Source: Entophlyctis helioformis
Taxonomy: Eukaryota; Chytridiomycota; Chytridiomycetes; Chytridiales; Chytriomycetaceae
Direction of reading: 5' to 3'
Length of the DNA stretch: 64,000 bases
Assembly (NCBI GenBank): GCA_025526915.1
Contig: JAHLKH010000108.1
Location: forward strand, 27,998 to 91,997
Shown here piece after piece: positions 5,532 to 64,000 of this stretch; position 1 is the first letter of the stretch, and the number at the start of each line of letters is the position of its first letter. The position numbers and the translations under genes are program-made. Below the pieces are notes generated by a model, which did not search any database, was not told where the DNA came from, and saw only the letters and a program-made list of their open reading frames with translations.

Positions 5532-7345
5532 CTATACCAGCAGCTCAAGGGAAATGCGATCTGCATATCCAAGACCTCGCTGTGTGGGTCGCACGCTCAC
5601 AAGATAGCCGTCGCCATCATATGCCACATCAAGCAGCCCGTGGCTCTGGAGCATGGCCAGCTTGTCGAGTTTGCCTTCCAGCATAGAGTGCAGCGACCTA
5701 TTGCCGGCGTACTGCGCAAACCCGGATGCGTGGATCCCGCTGCGCGACCTTAGCCCAAGCACAATCAGCTCTTCCTGCACTTGCGATGTGGTCATGGGTG
5801 TGATGCGGCGCGATCTAAGCACATGGCCCCCGGTTCATGTCACCGTTGAGTTGATCGCTCAGATGAGCAAGCAACCACATATGGCGGTGCAGCTTACCCA
5901 TGTCCAAGGGTCTCGCACTGTTCGGTCCATGCAGCTGGTTCAAGGATCCTGAAGGCCCTGTACCGCTGTGATCTATCTGCAGACGTCAATCGCCCATGAG
6001 CACCAGGGCCAACACCTTGACCGACAAACACTCCGCAAGTCAGCCACCCTGTGCACCCATGGCAGATCCCAGCATCCATGCGCACCAATATAGTCTGAGC
6101 CTGTCCAGTACGACTGGTTGTGTCTGCCGCGTCCAGCATCCGACTGGACTGCCGCATCCGAGCCCACACTGCTTCGCTTTGCAAATGATGACACCTCGTA
6201 CTGGTAGTATCCGTGCTGCCCAGTCACCTACTCGACACGAAACAAAATGAGCGCCACTATACAATATGCCAGTACTTGGGCCCACCAACCAGCCAACAAA
6301 GACACCATACCTCTTGCGTAGCCAGAAACAGATCGGCCATGGTGTCGTCATCAGGCAGCACGGCAGTCTGCGATTCCTTCACCGCCTTGTACAGCGGCGT
6401 GCCACGCTCGACAGTGAGCTGGTACAGGCTCAGATGCGACACACCAAGCGCGGCGATGCGCTCCAGCTCTCTTGTCCATGAGCCAACCGTCTGGCGCGGA
6501 CGACCCCAGATAAAGTCGAGGGACACGCGGTCAAACACGCTCATGCCCGCTTCGATGGCGCGGTTGGCATCAGCCGCCGAGTGATCACGGCCCAGGAAGC
6601 GCAGTGCATCGTCATCGTCTAACGCTTGCACGCCCAGCGACAGCCGGTTGATCCCAGCCGCCTTGAATGCCCGCAGCTTATCCGTCTCGAGCGTTGTTGG
6701 GTTGGCTTCGAGCGTGATCTCCATGTCTGGCGCCGTGTCCGCATGCAGCCGTATCGTGTCCAGCACGCTGCTCACCATCTCTGGCTGGCATGTCATGGCA
6801 TGGAGTCAAGTCGAGTCGAGTGGCATCCCGCATTGTCAGCCACGATGCCGTGTCCATCTGCCATGCCATGGAGGCAGTGGCATACGCACCCGTCCCAGGC
6901 TCGGTGTGCCGCCTCCAAAGTATACCGAATGCACCAGCGGTCTCGGTAAGGCGGCTGGCCGAGAGCCGGCATCCAGCGGCTGGCCAACAGGCAGCTGTGC
7001 CGCATGCATGCCGCTCTGCAACGCCTCCACTGGCCGTGTCAGGCTGAACACCAGATCCGACACCAGCGCCTGCTCAAACCGGTCGGTTGGAAGCCCGCTG
7101 TCCAAGACGACGGCTGTCAGCACAGGAGGCGTGAATGCAGATGCACGGCTGCAAGGACCGTGCGATGGCTGTCACCTGGACGGCGGCGTGTACTTGTTGA
7201 ATGCGCAGTAGGTGCATTTGGCCAGACACCAGGGGTAGTGCAGGTACACGGCCGCCGATGCCCTCGTGTCCACCGCTGCTGGCCGTGCCGGCGTCGATGT
7301 CGAGAACAGCCTGCGTGCATGTCGCAGCAGCCGCCTGGCAGACAT
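5532..7345 (-). CDS. RSAD1: HemW/RSAD1-like radical SAM protein, probably mitochondrial
   Basis: Six exons are inferred: about 7175-7345, 6890 to about 7124, 6311-6784, 6086-6215, 5898-6015 and 5532-5814. The start MSARRLLRHARRLF resembles a mitochondrial presequence. Next comes YLHYPWCLAKCTYC, the C-x3-C-x2-C cluster of the HemN/HemW radical SAM family, then VYFGGGTPS, EITLEANPTTLE, NRLSLGVQALDD, SLDFIWGRPRQT, SLYQLTVERGTPL, YYQYEVSSFAK, GPGAHGR and the C-terminal EELIVLGLRSRSGI. HemW is a heme-binding chaperone rather than a coproporphyrinogen oxidase; the C-x3-C-x2-C spacing without a fourth flanking cysteine favours HemW over HemN. The join between exons 1 and 2 is unresolved: the frame-consistent intron would be only 27 nt. 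All other junctions are in frame with canonical sites. Confidence 0.85.
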
Positions 7346-13747: not shown

Positions 13748-16882
<3,135 letters not shown>

Positions 16883-19682: not shown

Positions 19683-19876
19683 GGCGGAGATCGCGGTTTG
19701 CTGGGCAGACGCCAAACAACCAGCTGTAACGAGGGGCAGGCAATTCTGTGTTTCCCCATAGAAAACCCTGCGCCGGCACCTGATTGGCCGGCTGGTTTGC
19801 CTCGAATTTTGTTCAATTTGGCATCCAATTTCCAATCTTTTTGAATCCAATTTCATATTCTTGTCCGAATTCCCAG

Positions 19877-20293
19877 TCACTCTGAGCAGCCTGCAGTCGA
19901 TGCCTTCTCAAGCCGTGGACGCTTTGACGCTGGCTTGTGGTCTGCTGAGCCTGTCCAAGGGGCAGCAGTTGTCTGCGTGTTGGTAGTGTCACGAAGAACT
20001 GTCCTGCCATTGCCTGTTGTAGTTGTTGGCCTTCTGCATCCAGGTGGCGCACTTGTGTGTGCTGCTGGGGCTGCCTGCTGCAATGTCCGAACGGGCAACG
20101 TCACAGCCGACACAGACGGACTGGCATCAGCTGCTGCTGCTCTCTTCTGCTTGCTTGACGCTCTTTGGCGGCTGGCTGTTGGCGTGGCAGCTGCAACAAC
20201 GGTTGGCTGTCCAGGCTCGTCCGTAAGGTACTTGTCGTCGTCAAGATAGTCAAGGCACACAGTGTCAACAGAGTCGCAACTGTTGACAGCCAT
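19877..20293 (-). CDS. hypothetical protein with a basic KRPR motif
   Basis: An ORF of 138 codons from ATG 20293. The N-terminus is acidic (DYLDDDKYLTDE), the middle is Ala/Thr-rich, and the C-terminus carries KPASKRPRLEK, which resembles a nuclear localisation signal. I find no family. Its start faces the accessory region and its 3' end approaches the CBS/PB1 gene on the same strand. Low-complexity composition makes it doubtful. Confidence 0.25.
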   Translation of the reverse strand: MAVNSCDSVDTVCLDYLDDDKYLTDEPGQPTVVAAATPTASRQRASSKQKRAAAADASPSVSAVTLPVRTLQQAAPAAHTSAPPGCRRPTTTTGNGRTVLRDTTNTQTTAAPWTGSADHKPASKRPRLEKASTAGCSE

Positions 20294-20644
20294 TGCACAA
20301 GAGGCAGACGAGCTCACCAACAAGGACATGGATGGATCACTTGGCGGATCGTCGAGCTGCCGCGTATCATCGAGCTGCTGTAAGGCATCACGCTTGGCTT
20401 GGTCTGACTTTGAGAACTGTCAAGGCGATACACACAGAATGCCTGCGCAATTCTGCCCACTCATGTCAACCTCTGTCCTGGCTGCCTTTGTGTACACAGC
20501 AAGGTCACAGCGACAAGTGTCTTTGCAACAGCCAGCAGCGCAGATGATCAACATGTCTTGCATTCAAGGCACGATGCCGTCGCACCCCGTCATCCACAGC
20601 CAACAGCCACGCCCACCTGGCTTGTCAGCATGCCCGCGAATGCA

Positions 20645-21103
20645 ATGACGAGCAGCATGCACAGTCTCGGTCAACAACAAAGGGCTGATCGACTGCAGGC
20701 TGCAAAGAACAAGTCGTCCCAGACCTGCTGGCGACTGAAGTCAACAGTATCCAAAGTCGGCAATGAAGACACTGAGCCCAAGGAGAAACTCGCCTTGCAC
20801 CATCATCACAAGAAAGTGCGACACATTTGTGAGATCTGGGATGACTACTCGGTCAAAGATTGGAGGGCTGTCATGGTGTTGGTTGGCAATATCTGTTCCA
20901 AGGAGCCAGATAGCAATATGGCGCATCTCAGTACTGCTCAGAGCACAAAGGAGGGCTGGGCATCAGGCTGGAGGTATTCACACGGACGAGATCTAGCAAT
21001 TCCATGCGAACTTGGTGATTCCAACTGCGGCATGGACCCTATGAACAAGGCTGGATGGGCAACCAGTGCTGTGGCTACCATGCCAACACCCAAACCCTGT
21101 TGA
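20645..21103 (+). CDS. hypothetical protein, doubtful
   Basis: A 152-codon ORF with segments that look protein-like (LKSTVSKVGNEDTEPKEKL, HICEIWDDYSVKDWRAVMVLV) and a poorly ordered end. The opposite strand is also partly open in the same interval (a 61-codon frame at 20741-20926), so the coding strand is not certain. No family recognised. It lies in the island that precedes the XPG-like gene. Confidence 0.2.
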   Translation: MTSSMHSLGQQQRADRLQAAKNKSSQTCWRLKSTVSKVGNEDTEPKEKLALHHHHKKVRHICEIWDDYSVKDWRAVMVLVGNICSKEPDSNMAHLSTAQSTKEGWASGWRYSHGRDLAIPCELGDSNCGMDPMNKAGWATSAVATMPTPKPC

Positions 21104-21600
21104 GCATCAAGCAAGTCTTTGGTTGCCCATTCAACCAAGGTGTCCAGGTCTGCTGTGGCGCGGTTGTCTCTGCAGCACGCAAAAGAGTGCCGGCTGGATG
21201 CAAAGAGGCGCCAGTTGAGACTGCCACAGGCAGGAGAGCCCTTGGTGTGCCGCCGAGTGGCCATCAAGCCACCACCTCCAAGACAGGCTGCGTGCCAGCC
21301 TCAAAGTGGAGACGATCTGCATCAACAGCATCGCTGCTCAGAGTGGCATGGCAATCCAGCCAAGAAGAATGAAGTTGAAATGAAACCAGGCGTCAACCTG
21401 AGCAAAAGTCAATGCGAGCCAGCCAGCCAGTCAGCGGCACGTGCACGGTCGTGGACGAGAACACACGCCTCGTGACAGATCCATGCCACCAGACAACAAA
21501 CATGGCTGTACTGGTGGAAGAGGCGGCATTGTTGACCTTTTCATAGACTTCTGATTGGTTGGCTGTTTGGTGGAAAATCAAAGCAAACTTGTGTTGACTG
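21104..21600. other. no convincing gene
   Basis: Open frames exist on both strands (for example minus 20938-21267) but none continues into a recognisable protein and several are interrupted. It may be the decayed remains of a gene. Nothing else is visible apart from scattered low-complexity bases. Confidence 0.4.
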
Positions 21601-21649
21601 TTCTGCTCAGGTTACTAAAGGTAGGGAACAAGCACCACCCGATCACTCG

Positions 21650-21960
21650 ACGCACGGACACGCACGGACACGCACGGACACGCACGGACCACGCAGGCAG
21701 GATTGCAGGCACGCAGGATCGCAGGCACGATTGCAGGCAAGACTGCACGGACACGCAGGATCGCTCGCAGGATCGCAGGCACACAGGCATGAGCGCAAGA
21801 TTGTAGGCAAACAGGCACGGCCACGACCGCACACACAGTCGCTCGCAGGCACGATCGCACGAGCACGCACAATCGCACAATCGCACAAACAAACAAACAA
21901 ACGGTCACACACGGACGCGAAGGCATGGGCACACAGGTGAGACCACACGATCGCAGACAC
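21650..21960. repeat. degenerate minisatellite of CGCACGGACA and CGCAGGATCGCAGGCA units
   Basis: About 300 nt made of short G/C-rich units: ACGCACGGAC repeated four times at the start, then variants of GCAGGATCGCAGGCACGATT and CACGATCGCA. It ends about 10 nt before the ATG of the XPG-like gene, so it occupies that gene's promoter position. All six frames are open only because of the repeat. Confidence 0.8.
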
Positions 21961-21971
21961 AATTGCACGAC

Positions 21972-24900
21972 ATGGGGCTCCCTATGCTTGTTTCGTGGTT
22001 GGGGAAGCATGGCGGCAGCTGTGTACTCTTGATCGGTATGCTTGTGTCCACGTTCGTGAGGCTTGTGCTAGACAGCGCATGGCCGTCACGAGATCCAAGC
22101 GACGCCAACACGGCCACACCAAGCAACCCTGGTATTCTTCATGTCGATGTGATGAGCGTGTTCTATCCGCACTTCTCGGGGGCAGCAGGGCCCGATTACC
22201 CAGTATCCACAGCCGGGTGGATACCGATCCTCAAGCCCGTCATCACATCGTTCATTGCCGAGTACGGTGCTGAGCACGCCTATATCTTTCACGTTGACGG
22301 CAAGTACGGCGATACCGGTATCAAGTCCGCTCACAAGGGCCGTGCCCTGCAAGTCCTGCGTTCAGTGGGCACTATTCTGCGCTGCCTTTACAGACGGTGC
22401 ATAGGCAAGGGATCTTGGCACTTGAAGCGGTACGTACACTTCTTTGTGCCTCAATGTGGCGATTCTAACATTTGGTTGACGATCCAGGAAAGAGAAGCGT
22501 GCACTGCGACTTTCGTTCACCATCACACACGATGACAAGAGGCTCATCAAAGAGGCGATCGCGGAGATCCTTGGCTCTGGGTCTCGACACAAGGTCTGTT
22601 GGTGTAATCATGAGGCCGACGTCTGTATTGCCCGCCGCGCAGCCCTCCATGCAAGCGAGCCAAGGTATAGATTGCCATGACATCTGTCTGCTATGATTGA
22701 CGTCTAACAGTCTTTGTCTCCATCAGCGACACCCGATGGCCGTCATTTGTAACGACTCGGATCTCATTGCGCACTGCGCTGGACGCTGCCCGGTCATCAT
22801 GACGTCTAAGCGGAAGGGGGAGGCCAAAAGCCTGCTGTCTTTTAACCATCCAGGTATCGCGTCCGTTGCATCGGCCCTTGACGTCTATGTCTTCCCTGAT
22901 GTTTGCCAGTTTGTGGCTTCGTTTGGCAAGAGCGACTATCATGATTGTTACGGCCGTGGTGCGTGCGATTCCTGTCCTGATGCTCTGTATTGCCATCCAT
23001 GCTACAATGCCAACTAACTCATGTTGCCATTCACATTGCCTGGAAGGCCATCGCACGGCGTCAACACCACCAACAAGTACGTCGAGGAGGCAGCAAGCAA
23101 GCGGAATATCTCGCCGGAGGAGTTCTGCATTGTAGTACTGGGCCGCCAGACGGGCTTGCCGGCTGGTCTCGGGGCAGTGAGTATGCACGCAGGGGAACGG
23201 CGGGCAGACGACTGCAAGAACGGGGGAAACCAGAGCGGCCGGTGCGGCCCGACAATGTCTGTCCGGTCATGTGGGTCACGTGGATCACGTGGATCACGTG
23301 ACCGCGACCGAGCATCCGTTACATGCATCCTACTCCACAAACCAAGGATTGCAAAAAAGTTCAAGGCAGATGTTCGAAATGCTTACGCCGAGGAGATGTG
23401 GACGATCGGAGGCGAGGACCTTGCAAAGTCGTTCCTTAACGCCTTCTCCGTTTTCGTGTACCACGACGAGTCGGGGGCATTGGCCAATGCGTTCAAACCT
23501 CCAACTGGCTCCAGCAGCCCATCTGGCAACGCGCCAGTGCATAGGCAAGTTATTGCATGACTGGCTATGGGATGGTGGCATGGACGTGTTTGCATGCATA
23601 GCGCCGTACTGACCATCCATTTCCACATGGCAATGACAACAGCATGGCTGTTGACACGACTGCCACGCCTCAACCAAGGTATGCATGCACGCATGTGATC
23701 TCTTGGTGTGTCTCGCATGACTGATTCATCATTCCTGTCTTTGATGTCATTGTTGGATCACGATGCAGCTGCCAGCTACATGCCGGTTGCCTCCTGATCC
23801 ACCCCAAGTCGCAGCAAGGCAACCCCGATCCCAACATTGTGCACCTGACGCAGAAGGATATCGACTGGCACATCAAGAAGATTGTCAAGACAAGGCAAAT
23901 GGATGCTACCTTTCTCAATGTCAAGCGATGTCCGATTGCATTTGACTGCATTGTCAAGCACATGCCAGGTTACCTCGCTCGCAACCCCGATGGAGTCGCA
24001 GGCCGTGACATTCTGGCGACGATCAGCAGGACGGCAAGTTTGCAACTTTTAGAGATTGCCCGCGAGAAGTCTCAAGTAGCGGTAGTGCGCGCAGAGCTTG
24101 GTCGACTTGATCGGTTTGTTTGGGACACACATGTACATTATGGCATGACTTGGATGCATGTGCATTTCTCACCTTGAAGTGTCTAACTCAATCCACTGCC
24201 CGTTGGACAGGGCGCCGCTCGGAGGATGACGAATCAGTTGGGCAAGATTCTGGATCCTAAAGGTTCATCCTTCCAGAATCTGTCAACACCGCGTACGTTT
24301 GGCTTGCATTGGAATGACTCGACGCCATGTACTGACAGCAGCCATTTTGCCGAATGTGCTATTCCAGAACCAAAACCGCAGCCAGGCATGCAGCAAGTCA
24401 AGCAAAAGCCCAAGCAGCAAGGCAAGGTCATCAACCAAGATGATCTCCATGAATTCTCGGCCAAGAACCGCAAAAAGGCCAGAAAAAAGCTCAAGGCCCT
24501 GGGACGCATCATGGATGACCAATCAGTGACGCTTGTCAAGCAGCTGAAAGAGGCCACCGAGATGCTATTTTTGATCATCAATCAACCCTCGGTGCGTCTT
24601 CATCTTGACTGTCTGTGTGTGCATGCAATGACTTGGTGCGATCACTCATTTCTCCAATTGGCAGGCGGCTCCATCTAGAAAGCGGCACAAGCGGCGTAAG
24701 CGACCACAGCCATCTGTTGACGCTCAGGTGGAAGAAGCACAGCCCGTGGTCTTTTCTCTCAATCGACATTTAGACACCAAGACGACGGTTAGTTCTGATG
24801 TACCATTGGCACTTGCATATGCATTGTGTGCACTCAGAATGCATTGCTCATGCTGCATCCAACCTCCACAGCCACGACTTCAATTCACAAAGAAGCAGGA

Positions 24901-25617
24901 GGCCGCGCTCATGAAGAGAAGCACATTGCAAGCTGCAAAGGCCGCGACACTGAAGGCCATCAAGGCCAACAAGGGAAAGTCGAGCCGGTTTGCCCGTAGT
25001 AGTTTGCCTGCTGGCACGAGACATGGGTAAGTGATGTATGCTGTGCCATTTGCCTTGAGTATGCTTGCTGACATGCGTGTTTTGGCAGAATCGTGCTTCG
25101 CTCACGATGGGCACTACATCTGCTGATTCGAAAGCTGGGTCGCACTGTTACAGGGCCACTCATGTCGCTCTCTGCGGCCATCGGCAGCAATGATCAACAA
25201 ACGGCAGAGCAAGCAACCAATCAACCTGCTGTGGATGCGCCAGATCAGCCTGCCGTGGACGAGCCTGATCATCATGGCGCGAGAGTGGCGCTTAAGGTAC
25301 GATTTAGGATTGCCATTCTGCCTGCATGCATGGCTTTGCATGGACTGACTCAGAGGTTGGCCTGGTGCGCAGAAAATGTTGTCGGGCGATCCAGGAAGCG
25401 CCAAGGTCTATGGCATCGAAGCCAGGAAGACACCAAAGATATGGACGCGGTGTTTGATCATCGAGGACATGTTTGCAAAGGTGTACTCATTCATCGTCGG
25501 TCTTCGGCATGCTGGGTTCGTCGTGATTGGCGCCATCGTCGAAGAGCTACTCGATCTTGTCCCGGATGCACCACTCCCGCCCAAGTACCACGTCTACAAG
25601 TGGATCGATGGCAAGAC
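21972..25617 (+). CDS. XPG/FEN1-superfamily nuclease-like protein with long basic C-terminal extension
   Basis: A spliced frame can be followed through about eleven exons: 21972-22429, 22489-22664, 22711-22962, 23047-23176, 23360-23548, 23776-24113, 24225-24591, about 24666-24789, about 24873-25026, 25089-25294 and 25373-25617. The start MGLPMLVSWLGKHGG resembles the XPG N-terminus. Then follow HVDVMSVFYPHF, YIFHVDGKYGDTGIKSAHKGRA (the FDGK...K..R pattern of FEN1), HEADVCIARRAALHA (XPG-I, EA.....A) and VICNDSDLIAH (the .DSD.L. motif). A helix-hairpin-like FCIVVLGRQTGLPAGLG follows but lacks the acidic residues of CDY. The extension is Lys/Arg-rich (SRKRHKRRKRPQPS, KKARKKLKALGR). The frame runs on to a one-base shift near 25617, where the Fanzor-linked region starts. 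Structure-specific flap cutting is the family's role; activity here is unproven. Confidence 0.6.
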
Positions 25618-26400
25618 GACGCGGTATTGTTTCTTGGACCTGATTTCAAGGGCATCGACAACCTCGGCGACCATGCCAGCATTGACAGCCTCGGCGGCGT
25701 GACCAAGGCGGAGCTCTTCTCGGGTCGATTCACCCTCGGAAAGGACGTCACTGCCCGCCTCATGTACGGCTCGAGTTTGTACAATCACAAGAGCAAGAAG
25801 CCTCGGTATGGCCATCCGGTGCAACTGGCGACGGGTACAAGACTCGAGCGCATTATGTTTGAGAAGGTCGAGAAGCCCAAGACAGCCGAGGAGTCAAAGG
25901 ACGCAGAGCAGCATGAGGATGCCGAGGACGCCGAGGATGCTGAGGACGCCGAGGATGCCGACATTCACGAGCAGCCTGACAATCACGAGCAACCTGACGA
26001 GCCTCAGCAGCCTGATCAGCCTGCAGCAGCAGCACCAACAGTGCCGACATCCAACCAGCTGTTCACGGCACTCATCAACAGCACCTCGGGTGGCGAGACA
26101 ACTGTGGCCTGCATCTTTCGCCACCTGTCGTTCATTTTCACCGGCAAGGAGATGGCCAAGCCGCAGCATGACATGGAGACGATCAATGCATGGGTCGTCA
26201 CTGTCATGCAGTTGATGATCCACCGCGCATGGACGCGCGGGATGGTGCAGGCCAGTGCGGACAAGATGTACGCGGACAAGAATGGCGCGCAGCAGGCCGA
26301 CACAATCCAGACGGACATGCAGAGGACGTCACGTATCAGGCAGCTCTACCATACCGCCTGGACGACACTCTCTGCGGGAGCGCGACAATGACATCTTCAG
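25618..26400 (+). pseudogene. linker region between XPG-like nuclease and Fanzor A, broken by frame shifts
   Basis: After a one-base shift at about 25617 the text continues as DDAVLFLGPDFKGIDNLGDH and AELFSGRFTLGKDVTARLMYGSSLYNHKSKK, then an acidic repeat (EDAEDAEDAEDA, 25905-25965) and QPDQPDEPQQPD. From about 26040 it aligns with Fanzor copy B (TSNQLFTALINSTSGGETT here, SANDLLKVLTNSTSSGEGA in B at 63.9 kb). Further one-base shifts lie at about 26330 and 26385. I do not recognise the first part; it could be the C-terminus of the XPG-like protein or the N-terminus of the Fanzor protein. Confidence 0.55.
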
Positions 26401-28915
26401 CAACCTCGCCAGAGAGGTGAGCACCATACTCGCGCGGCACTACATTGGAAGTCAATTGACCTGGTGGTTGGTGCAGCCATCAAGCTTGCTCCCGGAATGT
26501 CTCGCGAGCAGGCGAAAGAGTTGGTTCAATCCCTGTTCGATGAAGCCGATGCCGCCAAGGCTGCTGCTGCCAAAGCCACCAAGGCTGCTGCTGCCAAAGC
26601 CCAAGGCTGCTGCTGCCAAAGCCACCGCGCCAAGACCATCGGCGGCCAAGAGAGGGAGACAAACGAGTGTGGCGTCAAGCACTGAGGACGCCGCGTCAAG
26701 CCCGACGCAACCCAAGAGAGCAAGGCGCAAGAGTACAGCGCCAAACCCATCGTCGGCCGATCTTGACACCACCCTTCCTGCGCCAAGCAACAAGAGAGGC
26801 CAGTCAGGCTCATCGTCGGCCACTGACAAGAGCGGCGCGACCAAGAAGGCACGCGGCAAGAAGCCGGCCGCCAAGGACGCCGCAGGGAAAAAGAGCGCTG
26901 TCGTGACCCCGCCAGCATTGCACAAGCTCGTGGCCATCATACGCAACATGTCGCTGTCGACTGTTGGACGCTTCAAGCAGCTGCGCGATCTCGCTGGAAG
27001 AGAGAGCATCAAGCTCTGTCCTCAAGCGGCAAGTCGTGATCCCTTTGTTCTTATCACCGAGACCGTCCTCTTCTGGGCGGTTATGGGGCTGAAAAGGGAT
27101 CGCACCAGCAAGTCACAAGATCCTGTCTTGCGAGCATTGAGAACGGAGCTTCTTGCTGCCATAAGTCAGTCACACTGCCTGTCTATGCCATCTTTTTATG
27201 ATTTGATGCTAACAATCCACTCTTCTCAAAGAGCCTGGCTGGCTTCTCAAAAGCTTAACTGGAAAGACTCGGAGCTTGCATTGCCCAATGACAAGATCGA
27301 CAAGGCGTTCAGTTCAAGTGACGAGCTGTGCGTCATGGATCTTCTGCTTCCGGGTCTTGCCTCCGATACACGGCGCTATCAAACGCCAGCACAGGCCAAG
27401 TTGCAGATTGATGCGGCCAACACCGCGGCAGAGACGGCCCTCGCCGCGCCCATTGACAAGGCCACAGCCATCCAAAGAACAACCCCATGACTTTCGATCT
27501 GGATGACGAGCAGTTGGTGGACATGATCAAGGCTGAGGTTGCTTTTCCTCAAGTGCTACCGACCAAGTCGGTCAGATTTGGCAGCATCAAGACCGACGGG
27601 AAGAGTGTCTTTCAAACTGTTCTGGAGTTTCGCACAAACCGTCCAAAGTCGCCTCGCAGTATGTGGCGTGCTTGGATGCTGTGGTGCACGCATTGATTCT
27701 GACCACTGCCTTGCTCTGCAGATCCCAACGCGGCGACTTCAAACGAGCAGCCCAGTCACGTTGAGGATGCTGATGACTCTGATTCTGACGATGACTTGGA
27801 TGATGACTTGGATGACGATGACTTGGATGATGGCCTTGATGGCGAATGTGAGTTGCTGTGCCAATCCAGACGCGTTCTTGTTGTCCACACCAACTGACAT
27901 GCCATCCACAGCCGCCAATCCAGCCGACTCATCAGCCGCCAAGCCATACACGCCCAATCCTGTAAGTCACTTGCATGCCAACCTCGCGCATTGGTGCACA
28001 TGCATTGCACATTCCTCACTCATGCCATGGCATGACAGGTCAAGCGCAACTTTTACGCCTCGCAGCGATTGCCCAACATCATCAAAGCCAACAAGCTGCT
28101 CGCCGACAAGGACTTTGTTCGCGTTGTCAGCTTTGATTGGGGCGAGCGGTACCTGTTTGGCGCGTCCAGCATGCTAGTCAATGTCAAGGAGGAGACATAC
28201 ACGCTCGAGGCCAACTACGTGCTCTCCTCTGGCGTATTTCATGCTGAGCGTGACCTTCAGCGGTGGTATGCATGCAATGACTCTGCCAGCGCACTCTTGA
28301 CCAGATCAACTCACAGTGCCTGCCTCCTGTGCCAGGCTCAACAATCGATATGCCAAGGCGTCCGACGTCCACGAGGCCATTGCATTCAAGACAGCAAAGC
28401 ATGCCGATCCAGACGCCAAGCAGGCGAGAGAGCCTTTTGGGATCTGCGCTGCCATGCGTACTGCACGCCATTCCTGAATGCACGGGTACGTTTTCTCTGG
28501 TTCTGGATGCCATTGACATGACCGCCATGCTGCTTGATGCCTGCTGATCACACTGGATGGCATGGCATGGCATGGCATTCCACAGAAAGTCAAGGACAAG
28601 CGGTTTGCCATGCGCTGCAAGCGCATGTCTGATCGCGGACAGGCTCTTGAGGGCATCATGAAGCTGGCAGGATCGACCACTAGATATCGCGCATCTCGTG
28701 CATCTCAAGGCCTCCCTGTCAGCAACCCAGAGAAGGACATTTCCGTTGTGTGGGCATTTGGCATCGACTTTACAGGCCAAGGTGGCCGGCACGCTGTGTT
28801 TGAGAAGTTTCTCATCAGGCATCTGCGGTCGTCTGGATATGCCTATGTGCGTCTGGATATGCCACGCTGTCCATCCATCCATCCATCCATCCATCCATCC
28901 ATCTGTGCACCAACT

Positions 28916-28951
<36 letters not shown>

Positions 28952-29475
28952 TCTACCGCTGCAATGAGAACCTGACCAGCCAGATGTGCCCGCAGTGCAA
29001 GCAGCGGATCCCATACGAGAACCGCACCAACCTGCGACGCTACGAGTGCACAGACTGCGAGACCGTCTACCACCGCGACGTGCTTGGTGCCACCAACATC
29101 GGAATGGTTGCACTGGAGCATCTGCTCTTTGGACAACGGCCGCTCTACTTGACGCACACGCCAGTCGATCCGCCTGTCGTCCAGCAGCCTCCAGCACCAG
29201 ATCCGCCTGTCGTCCAGCAGCGTTCTAGACACACCATCAAGCGACGTCTAGAACCAGATCCGACGGTCGACCAGCAGCGCCCAAGACGTGCCATCAAGCG
29301 GCGTCCAGCACCGGATCCGCCTGTCGTCCAGCTGCCTCTAGCACCGGATCCGCCTGTCGACCAGCAGCGTCCAACACGCAGACAGCGTGCCAGCAAGTCA
29401 AGTGCCACTCCACATGCTCTGACTTCCAGCACAACCACCAACACTTTGAATCGGGGCACCTCCCGATCGACCTAA
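26041..29475 (+). pseudogene. Fanzor copy A: TnpB-like RNA-guided nuclease gene, frame-shifted
   Basis: The C-terminal half has the signature of Fanzor nucleases, eukaryotic relatives of TnpB: RuvC-I in VVSFDWGERYLFGAS (Asp at 28135-28137), a VWAFGIDFTGQGGR block, CNENLTSQMCPQC with the displaced catalytic Glu (28966-28968) next to the zinc ribbon, YECTDCETVYHRDVLGATNIG with four zinc cysteines and the RuvC-III Asp (29077-29079). Introns include 27661-27720, about 27850-27912, 27962-28038, about 28268-28340 and about 28852-28950, most with counterparts in copy B. At least five single-base shifts break the frame (about 26330, 26385, 26455, 26600, 27485, plus one near 28425 relative to B). The C-terminal tail (29150-29400) is a run of PDPPVVQQ-type repeats absent from B. 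Fanzor proteins cut DNA guided by an RNA made from the element's right end; this copy is probably inactive if the shifts are real. Confidence 0.85.
28872..28949. repeat. (CCAT)n and (CA)n microsatellites inside a Fanzor A intron
   Basis: About seven CCAT units followed by a CA run, ending directly at the acceptor before the zinc-ribbon exon. The corresponding intron of copy B (61437-61500) has a shorter GT run in plus orientation, so the repeat has changed length since the copies separated. Confidence 0.85.
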
Positions 29476-29669
29476 CGGGTCACTTTATCACATCATTGTT
29501 CAAACAATGGTGCAAGGTGAGCATCTCGTTGGATGTGCCTCGCCCGCCTGTCGTCGCATGCTCGTTGCTGACTCGAACCTTCCATCGTGTGATATGCGGG
29601 CTTGCATTCGACGCCTCTCGCGTCCAATTTAATTCAATGATTCTTGGTAATTGTTTGAATGTCGGGCCA
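29443..29669 (+). ncRNA. candidate omega (guide) RNA scaffold and right end of Fanzor A
   Basis: From the stop-codon region to 29669 the sequence is conserved with copy B although it is largely non-coding. Shared parts are ACTTTGAATCGGGGCACC and the following bases to GGGTCAC, AGGTGAGCATCTCG, a block of about 40 identical nt (about 29548-29588), a hairpin at 29607-29627 (8-bp stem with one mismatch, 5-nt loop) and the terminal CTTGGTAATTGT...TCGGGCCA. After 29669 the copies differ completely. Fanzor and TnpB guide RNAs are known to come from the 3' part of the gene plus the element's right end, with the guide taken from flanking host DNA. The bases just beyond 29669 would then be the guide. 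Expression is not shown. Confidence 0.6.
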
Positions 29670-29695
29670 TTTGCCGGCGGTTTGCCGGCATTCCC

Positions 29696-29737
29696 TCGCC
29701 CTGTTGCCCACCCCTCGCCCTGTTGCCCACCCCTCAG
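29696..29737. repeat. two-copy 20-nt direct repeat upstream of the FMP25-like gene
   Basis: CCCTCGCCCTGTTGCCCACC occurs twice in tandem just upstream of ATG 29745. It lies in the only 75 nt of non-element DNA between the right end of Fanzor A and the gene start, so it may belong to the promoter or 5' UTR. Confidence 0.7.
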
Positions 29738-29744
29738 CTGTAAC

Positions 29745-31586
29745 ATGCCTACTGCTGCTGCCACGGCTGCACGGGCCGCATGTGCACTGCGGGCCCTGCC
29801 TGCCCTGCCTGCCATGACCTCCTACACCAACCACGCCCGCCTCGCCCGCCTCGCCTGTGGCCGCAGACACCTGGCGTCCACTGCCGCCGCCCGCTTCCAG
29901 CAGCAGCAGCAGCAGCAGCAGCAGCCCCGCAAGACCGGCCCGGCCGACGAGCCCAGCAACGAGCACCCGTTCCACAGGGGCCAGGCCGCCTCGTCCAGAC
30001 GCAGCCGCCTCGTCATCCTCGCCGCCAGCGTCGCCGTCTCCGCCATCACGCTTGCCGCCGCCGTGCGTATCGTCCACGCCGAGCCATCTGCCGCTGCGTC
30101 CGACGCAGCCGCGTCTGGCAGGCTGCCCAAGTCGCCCCTGCAGACTCTGATCGACGACGCCCGCAGCCATCCCGGCATCTGGATCTGGGGCTCCAACGGA
30201 TCGGCCCTTGTCGATCCCTCGTCGTCGTCGTCGTCTGCTGCCGACCCTGCCGTCGAAGCCATCCCCGTTGCCTCCCTCAGCGGCCAGGCCTTCCGCGACC
30301 TGGCTCTTGGCGACAACCATGCCGCTGCCATCAACGAGCGCGGCGACCTGCTGCTGTGGGGAAAGCAGCCCGCAGAGACTGCAGAGACTGCAGCACCAGC
30401 CTCGTCTTCGTTGCCCGCTGTCATCCTGGCAGGGAAGGATCTGACACAGGTCGCTTGCACTTCCAGACGCGTCTACGCCGTCTCTCGCTCGGGCTCGCTC
30501 TTCCAGATTGATCGGAGCAACGCCAACAAGGCGACCCACATCAGACTGCCGTCGGATGCAGCATGGGGCGAAAAGATTGTCCAGGTCTCGTCCGGCTCGG
30601 ACCACGTGGTTGCCGTCTCAAACACCGGCGCAGTGTACACGCTCATGTGCTCAGACAATGGAAACAAATACGGCCAGCTCGGCCTCGGCCACAAGGACTC
30701 CAAGGCTGTCTCGCCCTCTACCTTGTACCGCGTCGCAAAGCTTTCCGGCACCCGCTGCAACAAGGCCGCTGCTGGCCGTGGCCACACCATTGTTGGCTCG
30801 ACTGACGGCCGCGTCTTTGCCTTTGGCTTAAACAGTGTCGGCCAGCTGGGCATTGGCTCCAGCAAGACGCAGACGGCCGTTGTGCCCCTGGAGATCAACA
30901 CGATCTGGTCGGCTGCTGGAAACCCCTCGGACCAGGCGCGTCCGTTAGACGCTCACTGCACTCGCATTGCCGCTGGTGGAGACACGACGCTCTTTGTGAT
31001 TGAAACGCCGGATGCAACTCAGGTGCTTGCCTGTGGCAACGGCCAGTTTGGCCAGCTGGGCAATGGCGCCTTCCTCCAGGCTATGCACACGCCGACCAAG
31101 ATCAAGAGCCTGTCCAACCTGTGCGAATACGACGAGCACCGTCGTCGCGTGGTTCCAATCCGCGTATCCAAGATTGCTGCCAGCGACTCGCACTGCGCCG
31201 CCGTCCTGGAAAACTCGACTGGATCGGGCAGATCGGCCGGAAGCCGCGGATGGTTCTCGTGGCTCTCGCCATCGACTGCGGTCTCATATGGACACGACTT
31301 GCTCATGTGGGGCATGAACACCCATCTGCAGCTGAACCGCGCAGATGGCAAGCGTGGCAACCAGCCCGTTCCCGGATATGTGCTGCCCATCCAGTACACC
31401 AGCCCGTCTGTGCTTCCTGCAGCGCGGTCCGACTCCAGCGAGCCTGACGCAGATCCCAACATGCGTCTGCAGCTTGCATCAGCTGCCCCTACTGCCATTG
31501 GCCCTTTCAAGAAAACGCATGTTACTGAGCAGGGCATTGCCCTTGGTGATGGCGTCTCTGCCGTCTACACTCGCATTGTCACTTGA
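29745..31586 (+). CDS. FMP25: mitochondrial RCC1-repeat protein (Fmp25/RCC1L-like)
   Basis: A single exon of 613 codons. The first 50 residues are rich in Ala, Arg, Ser and Leu with no acid (MPTAAATAARAACALRAL...), a typical mitochondrial presequence, then a Gln tract (CAG repeat) and one hydrophobic helix (RLVILAASVAVSAITLAAAV). The body has RCC1-type propeller repeats: GIWIWGSNGSALV, RDLALGDNHAAAINERGDLLLWG, VQVSSGSDHVVAVSNTGAVYT, KYGQLGLGHK, AAGRGHTIVGSTDGRVFAFGLNSVGQLGIG and ACGNGQFGQLGNG. Yeast Fmp25 is a membrane-anchored RCC1-like protein needed for complex III assembly; the layout matches. The right end of Fanzor A stops only 76 nt upstream of this ATG. Confidence 0.85.
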   Translation: MPTAAATAARAACALRALPALPAMTSYTNHARLARLACGRRHLASTAAARFQQQQQQQQQPRKTGPADEPSNEHPFHRGQAASSRRSRLVILAASVAVSAITLAAAVRIVHAEPSAAASDAAASGRLPKSPLQTLIDDARSHPGIWIWGSNGSALVDPSSSSSSAADPAVEAIPVASLSGQAFRDLALGDNHAAAINERGDLLLWGKQPAETAETAAPASSSLPAVILAGKDLTQVACTSRRVYAVSRSGSLFQIDRSNANKATHIRLPSDAAWGEKIVQVSSGSDHVVAVSNTGAVYTLMCSDNGNKYGQLGLGHKDSKAVSPSTLYRVAKLSGTRCNKAAAGRGHTIVGSTDGRVFAFGLNSVGQLGIGSSKTQTAVVPLEINTIWSAAGNPSDQARPLDAHCTRIAAGGDTTLFVIETPDATQVLACGNGQFGQLGNGAFLQAMHTPTKIKSLSNLCEYDEHRRRVVPIRVSKIAASDSHCAAVLENSTGSGRSAGSRGWFSWLSPSTAVSYGHDLLMWGMNTHLQLNRADGKRGNQPVPGYVLPIQYTSPSVLPAARSDSSEPDADPNMRLQLASAAPTAIGPFKKTHVTEQGIALGDGVSAVYTRIVT

Positions 31587-60733: not shown

Positions 60734-60943
60734 TGGCCCGATATAGATACAATTACCAAGGATTTTGGAGTTATATTCGTCGCAAGAGGCGTCGAATAGA
60801 TGCCCGCGTATAACACGATGGCAGGTTCGAGTCAGCAACGAGCATGCGACGACAGGCGGGCGATGCACACCAGCGAGATGCTCACCTTTATCGTTAGAAA
60901 AAGTGACCCGTTAGGTCGATCGGGAGGTGCCCCGATTCAAAGT
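60734..60943 (-). ncRNA. candidate omega (guide) RNA scaffold and right end of Fanzor B
   Basis: Read on the minus strand from 60943 to 60734 it matches the tail of copy A: start motif, AGGTGAGCATCTCG, a block of about 40 identical nt (about 60833-60873), a hairpin at 60776-60796 (7 of 8 pairs, mismatch at a different pair than in A), and the terminal CTTGGTAATTGT...TCGGGCCA ending at 60734. It is 17 nt shorter than A because of one indel after GGGTCACTTT. The bases below 60734, inside the 3' flank of the tectonic gene, would supply the guide. Confidence 0.6.
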
Positions 60944-63900
60944 TGGTAGTGGTCAAACAAGTCACTGTGTGGGATGCAGGTCAAGTGACTTGAGGGCAGG
61001 CTGTCTGCGTGCTGGTCGCTGCTGGACGACGGATGGACCGTGTCTTGAACGCCACAGGACGGCAGGCTGATCTGGTCCCATGAGGCCACATGCGACTTGA
61101 AGTGTTTCCGCGTTTGAGGCTGTGGGACAACAGGCGGAGCATTTCGTGCACAATCCTGGATGAATAGATGCATTGCCTCGATGTCTGCAAGGTACTCTGT
61201 CGTGGCTGGATTGCTGTCAGGTTTTGTGTGTGTCAAGTAGAGCGGCCGGTGTCCAAAGAGCAGATGCCACAGTGCGACAATCCCGATGTTGGTGGCTCCA
61301 AGCACGTCGCGGTGGTAGACAGTCTTGCATGGTATGCACTCGTAGCGTCGCAGGTTGGTGCGGTTCTCGTATGGGATCCGCTGCTTGCACTGCGGGCACA
61401 TCTGGCTGGTCAGGTTCTCATTGCAGCGGTAGATCTGTGTGTGTGTGTGTGTGGTCAGTTGGTGCACAGATGGACGGATGGATGGACAGCGTGGCATCAG
61501 ACGCACATAGGCATATCCAGACGACCGCAGATGCCTGATGAGAAACTTCTCAAACACAGCGTGCCGACCACCTTGGCCTGTAAAGTCGATGCCAAATGCC
61601 CACACAACGGGAACGTCCTTCTCTGTTGGCTTGTCACAGCGGCCTTGAGACGCAGCAGATGCGCGCTCTCCAGTGGTCGAGCCTGCCAGCTTCATGATGC
61701 CCTCAAGAGCATTTCCGCGATCAGACGTGCTGTTGCTGCGCTTGGTGAACCGCTTGGCCTTGACCTTCTGTGGAATGCCATGCCATGCCATGCCATCCAG
61801 TACAATCAGCAGGCGATCAAGCAGCTTGGCAGCCATGTCAATGGACATCCAGAACCAGAGAAAACGTACCCGTGCATTCAGGAATGGCGAGCAGTACGCA
61901 TGGCAGCGCAGATCCCAAAAGGCTCTCTCGCCAGGCTTGACGTTTGGATCGGCATGCTTTGCTGTCTTGAAGGCAATGGCCGCCTGGATGTCTGCAGCCT
62001 TGGCATATCGATTGTTGAGCCTGGCACAGGAGGCATGTGCTGTGAGTTGATCTGGTCAAGAGTGCGCATGGCAGAGTCATTGCATGCATACCACCGCTGA
62101 AAGTCACGCTCAGCTTGAAACATGCCAGAGGAGAGCACGTAGTTGGACTCGAGCTTATACGAAAAGTCTCTGAGATCAACCAAGATGCTGGATGCGCCAT
62201 ACAGATACCGCTGGCCCCAATCAAAGCTGACAACGCGAACAGTCTGGTAGCCTTGGTCAGTGAACAGGTTGTTGGCGTTGATGATGTCGCGCAGTCGCTG
62301 CGAGGCGTAAAAGTTGCGCTGGGCCTGTCGTGCCATGGCATGAGTGAGGAATGTGCAGTGCATGTGCACCAATGCGTGAGGTTAGCAGGCAAGTGGCTTA
62401 CAGGATTGGGCGTGTATGGCTTGGCGGCTGATGGGTCGGCAGGATCGGCGGCTGTGGATGGCATGTCAGTCGGTGTGGACAACAAGAACGTGTCTGAATT
62501 GGCACAGCAACTCACATTCGCCATTAATGTAATCGGGCTCGCCATCAGCCTCGTCAACAAGCCACGGCTGCTCGCCTGAAGACGCTGCGTTGGGATCTGC
62601 AGAGCAAGGCGGCAGTCAGAATCCATGTGTGCACCATCGCATTCAAGCACGCCACATACACCAAGGTGACTCTGGACGGTTTGTGCGGCAGTCCAGTGCC
62701 AGCTGGTAGATGCTGTATCCATCTGTCATGATGCTGCCAAGTAGGATCGCCTTGGCTGGTCTTGCTGGACGCACAGCATCAATCGCAGCCTTGATATGCT
62801 TCTCGCGCTCCTTGCCAACCAGACCCTGCTCATCAGCCTCTTGCGTCGCCTTGGCTGTGGCATCGGCAACCGCGTCCATCTCATCTTTGGCTTCTGAAGG
62901 TGTCTGGAAGCGACCGTTCTTGGGGCGGAGACCTGGGAGAAGGATGTCAAAGATGCAAACCTCGCGACTTGCGCTGAATGCGTCTTGGATGTCCTTGTTG
63001 GATGACGCAAGAGCTGACTTGGCATCTTCATAGCCTTGGAGAAAAGTGCAGTGTCAGCATCAAATTGTGTACACATGGCATATACAGGCAGCGCGACCAA
63101 CCAAGTGCAGCCAGAAGCTGTAGTCTCAATGCCTGCAAAGCAGGATCCTGATTGCCACGGATGCGCTCATCCTTTGTCCTCATCACCGCCAGAAAGAGCG
63201 TCGTCTCCAGTGATGAGGACAAATGGATCACGGCCTGCAGGCTGTGGACACAACTTGAGGGATGAGCCTGCGAGATCACACAACTGCTTGAACTTGCCAG
63301 CCTCTGGCAGCGACTTGTTGCGCACGACCGCCGTGAGCCTGTGCAGTGCTTGTGGATCTCGACAACGTGTCCGTCTTGTCTGGTCGACAGTGGCATGCCA
63401 GACATGGCGTCCCCGGTGGCTGTATCCATTGCCTTGGCAAATTCCGCTGCCTTGTCAGCAGATATACCAGGAATCAGTCGGTGGATTGCCCAGTCAATGA
63501 GCATCGACTGGTGGGTCATGAAGTGCACAGCAAGCATGCCACAGATGCCCCGTGCAAGGTTGCTGTAGATGTCGTTCCGAGCAGCTGCACACAAACTGTC
63601 GTCAAGCCTGCCAGGCAAAACGGCATGCATCGTGCTTGCGTCCATGTGCACAATGGCTGACAGCAATGAGCCGGCCTGCGTCGCGTCCATCTTGGCTGCC
63701 CGCGCCACACCAGCCCGCATCTTGGTCATGCTGTCCCAGATCATCTGCTGCGTCCATTCGCGGTGATGATCATCTGCATGATGGTCACAATCCACGAGTG
63801 GGCCACATGCTTTGTCGCCCGCGGCATGACCGACTCCTGACCGGTGAGAATGTAGCCCAGGTATCGCAGAAGCATCGTGACGGCTCCCTCGCCACTAGAG

Positions 63901-64000
63901 GTGCTGTTTGTGAGCACCTTGAGCAGATCATTTGCCGATGGTACTGCCCGTTGTAGTGGTGACTCGATGGCTGGTGGTTGGGCATCGGTGCTGCTGGATG
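60937..64000 (-). pseudogene. Fanzor copy B: TnpB-like RNA-guided nuclease gene, 5' part outside window
   Basis: Same layout as copy A on the other strand. RuvC-I is VVSFDWGQRYLYGAS (about 62208-62235), then WLNNRYAKA, ERAFWDLRCHAYCSPFLNARV, VVWAFGIDFTGQGGR, CNENLTSQMCPQC with the Glu at 61417-61419, and YECIPCKTVYHRDVLGATNIG (zinc ribbon plus RuvC-III Asp). Introns match those of A in place and partly in sequence (for example the one starting GTATGTGGCGTGCTTG at about 62660). The C-terminal half is one clean spliced frame, where A has a lost base. Toward the N-terminus there are shifts: a 2-nt insertion near 63755 and a compensating pair near 63350 and 63215. The tail (KPDSNPATTEY to the stop) differs from A. 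Whether a neighbour nuclease precedes it lies outside the window. Confidence 0.85.

Follow-up and report, generated by a model that had tools for sequence, protein, structure and literature searches.

In the chytrid Entophlyctis helioformis, a block of sequence shared by two copies in the window, by which we mean the whole 64,000-nucleotide stretch analysed here (27998-91997 of contig C108), is the right-hand end of a Fanzor-bearing transposon family with well over 100 copies, and the best explanation of this block is that it probably encodes the scaffold of a Fanzor omega-RNA. A reading made from the window sequence alone had already proposed a guide-RNA scaffold here, and its conclusion survives as the best reading, although the evidence that it named is weak or wrong, since the conservation of the block does not exceed that of an intron of the same gene and the hairpin that it singled out does not covary. 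Two kinds of element carry the block, the A type, to which copy 1 belongs, and the B type, which is the main type and includes copy 2 (Table 1). A single genome with at least 150 Fanzor hits, in which one group of elements has the scaffold end at its terminus and the other has it internally, represents a natural experiment, and a comparison of A and B RNAs would show how the boundary of the guide is set.

Table 1. Features of the two window copies, with positions numbered from the first letter of the window.
Feature	Position	Strand	Basis
Target-site duplication, 9 bp, AGCTGTAAC, left copy	19722..19730	.	flank comparison
Copy 1, whole A-type element, about 10.0 kb, ends GAGGGGCAGGC... / ...TTGCCCACCCCTC	19731..29735	+	ends read in sister copies
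Upstream open frames, probably exons, function not assigned	21973..25030	+	no Pfam match for pieces scanned
Fanzor C-terminal part, several exons, stop 29473-29475	27539..29475	+	motifs, TNB domain
Candidate omega-RNA scaffold, copy 1, ending GGGCC	29445..29668	+	block alignment
Hairpin 1, AUCGGG/CCCGAU, near-invariant	29450..29467	+	99.2% of cells paired; no variation in 4 of 6 pairs
Hairpin 2, GACC/GGUC, loop UAACG or AAUAG	29469..29481	+	99.6% of cells paired
Run of 41 nt identical in both window copies	29540..29580	+	copy comparison; A-B identity 0.952 at 29544-29573
Hairpin of the sequence-only reading, unsupported across copies	29606..29628	+	pairing test
Former right terminal inverted repeat CTTGGTAATTGTTTGAATGTCGGGCC	29643..29668	+	right-end pattern
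Additional MuDR-like A-type right end, 48 bp as in sisters (to 29716) plus 19-bp duplication	29669..29735	+	sister copies
Target-site duplication, 9 bp, AGCTGTAAC, right copy	29736..29744	.	flank comparison
Copy 2, right part of B-type element, cut by contig end, left end missing	60735..64000	-	sequence comparison
Candidate omega-RNA scaffold, copy 2; end is the exact element boundary; guide would be flank from 60734 downwards	60735..60942	-	block alignment

The block common to both copies extends over about 29445-29668 (+) and 60735-60942 (-), where the alignment stops after TCGGGCC, and the identical stretch of some 40 nt noticed earlier was recovered as 41 nt. The A that follows in both copies (29669 and 60734) had been counted with the shared motif; it lies outside the block and agrees by accident. 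The location of the block after the coding region holds for copy 2 but not wholly for copy 1, in which the first 30 or so nucleotides are still coding. When the 29.57-Mb genome, in 482 contigs, was searched, the right-end block of copy 1 gave at least 40 scored matches from 206 candidates and that of copy 2 at least 40 from 210, while a 26-base right-end pattern with up to three mismatches occurred at 164 places and its reversed control at none, which puts the resemblance far from chance. A 23-base left-end pattern occurred at 86 places (reversed control, 0). The TNB domain (PF07282) gave at least 150 scored matches from 205 candidates, all 150 of them over the curated cut-off, and the two window copies score 29.4 and 38.6 bits against a Pfam cut-off of 26.3; all of these family copy counts are lower bounds. 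In the chytrid Spizellomyces punctatus, 42 Fanzor loci and 134 "ghost" loci have been counted (PMC10432273). Judged by titles and abstract openings, the open-access literature yielded no report of a Fanzor from Entophlyctis helioformis, and a mention in Jiang et al. 2023 is possible.

It is in the B kind that the anatomy is simplest. Here the conserved block terminates exactly at ATCGGGCC, the right inverted repeat, which is followed by an 8-bp target duplication and then by unrelated DNA. A sharp left end, GGCCCGGTTCTCATACCATTACC or a near match, was present in 19 of 20 left-end windows (L074 had none) and repeats the right end CTTGGTAATTGTATGAATATCGGGCC imperfectly in inverted orientation; a left end placed earlier from two copies was abandoned because homology extends further left. 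Pairing of 76 of the 86 left places (up to two mismatches) with the best 81 of the 164 right places (up to one mismatch) gave 39 left-right pairs on the same strand and no more than 20 kb apart, with a spacing of 7.2-11.6 kb in 28, 0.9-2.2 kb in three and 13.8-15.9 kb in eight. Flanks were compared in 30 pairs, three of which have one left flank in common and two one right flank, and 7-8 of the 8 flank bases were equal in 16 of the 30, against a mean of 0.61 and a maximum of 5 in 2000 shuffles; the B type therefore generates an 8-bp target-site duplication. The other 14 pairs agree at fewer than 7 of 8 bases, two of them at 6 of 8, and pairs without a duplication include copies with exchanged flanks; three B copies share one left flank and have different right flanks. 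Fifty distinct right flanks are A-rich from +2 to +6 and have no base preference past +8, and the 29 left flanks compared show no conspicuous position outside the duplication (KL at most 0.42), a degenerate motif being possible. Judging from these flanks, the simplest prediction for a TAM appears not to be borne out, and a loose TAM is possible.

The A type differs at both ends. The left end of copy 1 is matched, to within a few bases, by the starts of 13 other scored places. At the right, most A copies have GGGCC followed by 48 bp, ATTTGCCGGCGGTTTGCCGGCATTCCCTCGCCCTATTGCCCACCCCTC, where copy 1 has 67 bp, and copy 1 ends at 29735 because a further 19-bp duplication, peculiar to it among the A copies read, is added to the 48 bp. 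A hairpin, TGCCGGC/GCCGGCA, lies at 29672-29690 within this additional end. Thirty loci fetched with the copy 1 block comprised 25 with the A end, some cut short, and five with a B-like end. The first 23 bases of the A end (CC included) were found genome-wide at 60 places with up to three mismatches, and of the 59 that were read, 57 have the scaffold end directly before them and 56 the terminal repeat after them; of the two that lack the scaffold end, the one on C53 is an inverted piece next to another A end and the one on C78 is unrelated. Eight right ends of a related group (L127, L128, L130, L132, L140, L162-L164) carry GGGCATTTTGCCGGCAACTGCCGGCATT in the position of the 48 bp. Among eight further A copies with both ends read, the 9-bp duplication was found at C264 and C22 (9 of 9 bases) and at C235 (8 of 9), approximately at C95 and in altered form at C169; it was not seen at C16, C18 and C103, nor at C112. 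An old left repeat matching CTTGGTAATTGTTTGAATGTCGGGCC was not found in copy 1 between 19000 and 27500 at the mismatch limits used, and a scan of the open frames and, one by one, of the exon pieces of the A type for a MuDR transposase gave no transposase domain. An element on contig C49 has a coding region about 75% identical to that of copy 1, is by eye close to copy 1 in sequence over about 21300-21540, and has a B-type left repeat at 5933 and a right repeat at 15727; from this A-like element with B ends we infer that the outer ends of the A lineage were probably gained later. Copy 1 also contains a 193-bp stretch (23131-23323) that is absent from most of the listed sister copies and occurs elsewhere in pieces and in both orientations, and is thus a small repeat.

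These sister copies bear directly on the statement that conservation breaks off abruptly at 29669 and 60734, where a guide would begin. It does stop in the copy 2 kind, where B-B identity is 0.45 in the window 29664-29693, and a guide starting right after the shared motif is plausible there. In the copy 1 kind a further 48 bp are shared, so 29669 is ruled out as the end of conservation and a flank guide starting from it is contradicted. Conservation in other copies beyond these positions, which the sequence-only reading had named as a refutation, is therefore seen for copy 1 but not for copy 2. A conserved right end followed by variable flank, as expected of an omega-RNA, is thus found in the B type and not in the A type.

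The encoded nuclease was examined through its motifs. Copy 1 has DWG at RuvC-I (28135), NENLTSQMC near 28978, the TNB zinc finger and RD at RuvC-III (29074). The Fanzor C-terminal motif of Bao and Jurka, D-X(125,275)-[TS][TS]-XX-C4 zinc finger-X(5,50)-RD (PMC3627910), is present in the hand-spliced copy C10, with 189 residues between D and TS and with TSQMCPQC...CIPC...HRD. (The splice model of C10 yields one protein of 1,942 residues, in which the prediction is partly out of frame.) An alternative glutamate (Ealt), located six residues ahead of the zinc finger, has been described (PMC10711439), and in a scan of 100 loci the corresponding glutamate of E-NLTSQM-C was found in 94 of 97 matches, two of the others having K and one being an unrelated match. 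DPG is said in the same source to occur at RuvC-I "near exclusively" in Fanzors, and a clade with the alternative glutamate and a hydrophobic residue replacing the P of DPG is also reported there (PMC10711439); here RuvC-I is DWG, not DPG, in all 41 loci in which the stretch was matched among 60 long loci scanned. Because the alternative glutamate is present and DPG is not, the nuclease is, on its motifs, Fanzor-like and not a typical Fanzor1, and the DWG motif would provide a test of the rule that eukaryotic Fanzors carry DPG. A PDB search with P0007 returned no Fanzor, and searching by sequence brought up no solved structure. Eight proteins are homologous to the Fanzor part and two to the upstream part, and since all come from Entophlyctis helioformis no alignment across species is possible. 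The coding sequence at 21973-25030 lies upstream of the Fanzor part or is fused to it. Its B-type counterpart, recognised by eye only, is P0013 (also P0014; L066/L067), and P0013 has no NCBIfam or PDB match. A FEN1/XPG nuclease was considered for the upstream gene because of a motif; with no match in Pfam, NCBIfam or the PDB and an uninformative AlphaFold model (mean pLDDT 37.9), no such assignment is made.

How much weight the conservation of the block can bear depends on the rest of the gene. Across 60 loci, of which 55-60 were usable per segment, an intron had a mean A-B identity, gaps counted, of 0.917, two exons had 0.889 and 0.938, the C-terminal tail had 0.414 and the block, in two parts, had 0.770 and 0.814; when gaps were left out these means became 0.928, 0.902 and 0.939, 0.645, and 0.882 and 0.829, respectively. 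Since an intron of the same gene is at least as conserved, conservation of the whole block is ruled out as proof of function, and two diverged copies with a common block prove little. The copies had been described as having diverged in their proteins, which is true of the C-terminal tail (29160-29440), strongly so, and of the upstream coding part, where there is almost no DNA match, but not of the RuvC and TNB parts, which, intron included, are 88-94% identical between the kinds. Conservation within the block is uneven. A profile in windows of 30 nt over 59 copies (25 with the A end, 34 other) gave A-B identities of 0.86-0.89 in the intron and 0.74-0.99 in the block, overall about the same, and in the block 29454-29483 reaches 0.988, the top of 46 windows, and 29604-29633, which holds the hairpin named earlier, is the least conserved window of the block at 0.741. 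The stop codon of copy 1 falls within hairpin 2 and that of copy 2 (60937-60939) lies before hairpin 1, and because hairpins 1 and 2 are therefore coding in copy 1 and past the stop in copy 2, protein coding cannot explain their conservation in both. In the block and exons of 59-97 copies, variable sites lose their linkage over about 30 nt and four-gamete combinations occur often, a pattern that suggests much recombination or gene conversion among copies; as decay is equal in the exons, it says nothing special about the block.

For RNA structure, 107 loci were tried, nine without a complete right end were left out, and 64 of the 97 distinct right ends, those less than 95% identical, formed the covariation set. 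Hairpins 1 and 2 together (29450-29481) are near-invariant, at 98.8%, and give no covariation because they hardly vary. The hairpin proposed earlier (29607-29627) can form in the window copies, but the genome-wide alignment that had been suggested as its test shows no covariation: taken as nine pairs, it keeps 7-8 in 52 of the 64 sequences and all nine in two, with one pair T.T or A.A in 41 and another G.G in 32. The three helices had 90.8% of cells paired, and 500 of 500 shuffles did at least as well (mean 91.7), a failure that is due to this hairpin since the other two helices hardly vary. Given the mismatched pairs and the shuffle test, it is rejected as a conserved helix. RNAalifold on the 64 distinct right ends predicted 25 pairs, two of them with change on both sides. 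Eleven sequences replace G-C by A-U, a compensatory change, in a small hairpin at alignment columns 153-163; this carries little weight, because sites as close as these columns, 10 nt or less, are still strongly linked (mean r2 0.275). Single folds have slightly greater stability than shuffled sequences (z -1.97 and -1.71), and Rfam gave six matches over 28900-29800, with E from 2.2 to 9 and none near the gathering score.

The closest described relative in organisation is SpuFz1 (SPu-1) of Spizellomyces punctatus, a Fanzor1 with an omega-RNA (PMC10432273, PMC3627910). Like the family described here, it is an inverted-repeat transposon present in many copies in a chytrid, and its RNA region lies between the stop codon and the right inverted repeat, with variable sequence directly after; its RNA extends 14-15 nt into the flank (PMC10432273). 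There are also differences: SpuFz1 is about 2.1 kb with one open frame, where the elements here are mostly 7-10 kb with introns; it has TA duplications instead of 8-bp ones, a 75-nt scaffold instead of a block of about 200-225 nt, DPG instead of DWG, and a conserved CA beside the left repeat (TAM CATA), where no fixed flank motif is present here. The A type in turn resembles the MuDr-type Fanzor1 elements ROr-4, PBl-3 and MCi-4, which according to Bao and Jurka have 9-bp duplications and no recognised transposase (PMC3627910), since it too combines 9-bp duplications and inverted repeats without a recognised transposase; compared by description, it differs from them in holding a second, older right end inside. 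The TnpB reRNA/omega-RNA of IS200/IS605 and IS607 likewise places the scaffold at the right end and takes the guide from the flank, but as outlined in PMC10711439 those elements have different transposases and no target duplication, whereas the present ones are duplicating inverted-repeat transposons of a eukaryote.

The scaffold reading draws on the placement of the block, which like the RNA region of SpuFz1 sits between the stop codon of the Fanzor gene and the right inverted repeat, on the near-invariant double hairpin at its 5' end, and on the exact coincidence of its end with the transposon boundary in the B kind. In the B type, a transcript would start at the pair of hairpins close to the stop codon, pass through the terminal GGGCC and continue into host DNA, and once processed and bound by the nuclease it would carry a guide that every insertion acquires anew, the first bases being those of that insertion's 8-bp target duplication. 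By cutting the empty site, the complex would favour re-copying of the element, a form of homing. In the A lineage, a second, MuDR-like end lies outside the old one and puts 48 bp of element sequence (67 in copy 1) where the guide would be; reading of a flank guide would be lost, or the boundary at the outer end used instead.

The most serious competitor, which we consider to have a real though clearly smaller chance of being right, is that the block is a transposon end and nothing else, made up of the inverted repeat, subterminal sequence needed for transposition and 3' UTR, in copies that are recent and produce no guide RNA. That the terminal 26 nt are the B-type inverted repeat, that block identity is not above the intron and that the named hairpin does not covary would all be as expected. 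The strongest conservation, at hairpins 1 and 2, lies however about 190 nt inside, far from the inverted repeat, in nucleotides that code in copy 1 but not in copy 2, and the alternative glutamate and zinc-finger motif are kept in nearly every matched copy, which speaks for the omega-RNA scaffold.

For the A lineage, it is rather unlikely, and a little less probable than a bare transposon end, that the scaffold is simply longer and reaches the outer end (29735 in copy 1), the guide still being flank. Among A copies the 48 bp form a single conserved unit, and their hairpin retains its 7-bp stem with different loops in A, A2 and L116. In known systems, however, the guide directly follows the scaffold end, a position from which the added hairpin would move it; a requirement of the transposase for such an end would account for the 48 bp equally well, and the 9-bp duplication is seen in only part of the A copies read. 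We give little credence to a locked guide, in which an A-type element with the second end would no longer sample host DNA and would carry one constant, self-complementary guide that matches only its sisters, its nuclease acting on its own family or disarmed, and in which the protein with DWG and the alternative glutamate would represent a eukaryotic branch outside the DPG fingerprint. Least probable of all is that the constant ATTTGCCGGCGGTTTG of the A-lineage RNA works as a fixed guide against sister elements: these 16 nt occur with 0-1 mismatch at 57 places in the genome, all among the 60 places of the A-end search, which speaks for such a guide, but the sequence is self-complementary, each match lies within the element itself beside GGGCC, and the block shows no more recombination between copies than the exons do.

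Several individual B copies depart from the common structure. Contigs C202, C215 and C166 (L038, L041 and L050) share a B right flank that is identical over the 1,498 nt compared, and all three end exactly 6,094 bp after that right end; C166 and C215 have different left flanks, none was found for C202, and the common flank is probably a subtelomeric duplication. On contig C18 (L077 and L047), the left end of a B-type copy is interrupted by a GAGGGG-containing piece, and its right flank has a reversed right-end-like sequence and then the A-type terminal repeat, a complex nesting. On contig C5 (L004/L167), about 30 bp before the left end recur, nearly identical, about 18 nt past the right end, which does not fit a simple 8-bp duplication. 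On C35 (L126/L181) and C436, short elements with a length of about 1 kb have both B ends with a TNB match between them, and are possibly non-autonomous, scaffold-bearing derivatives.
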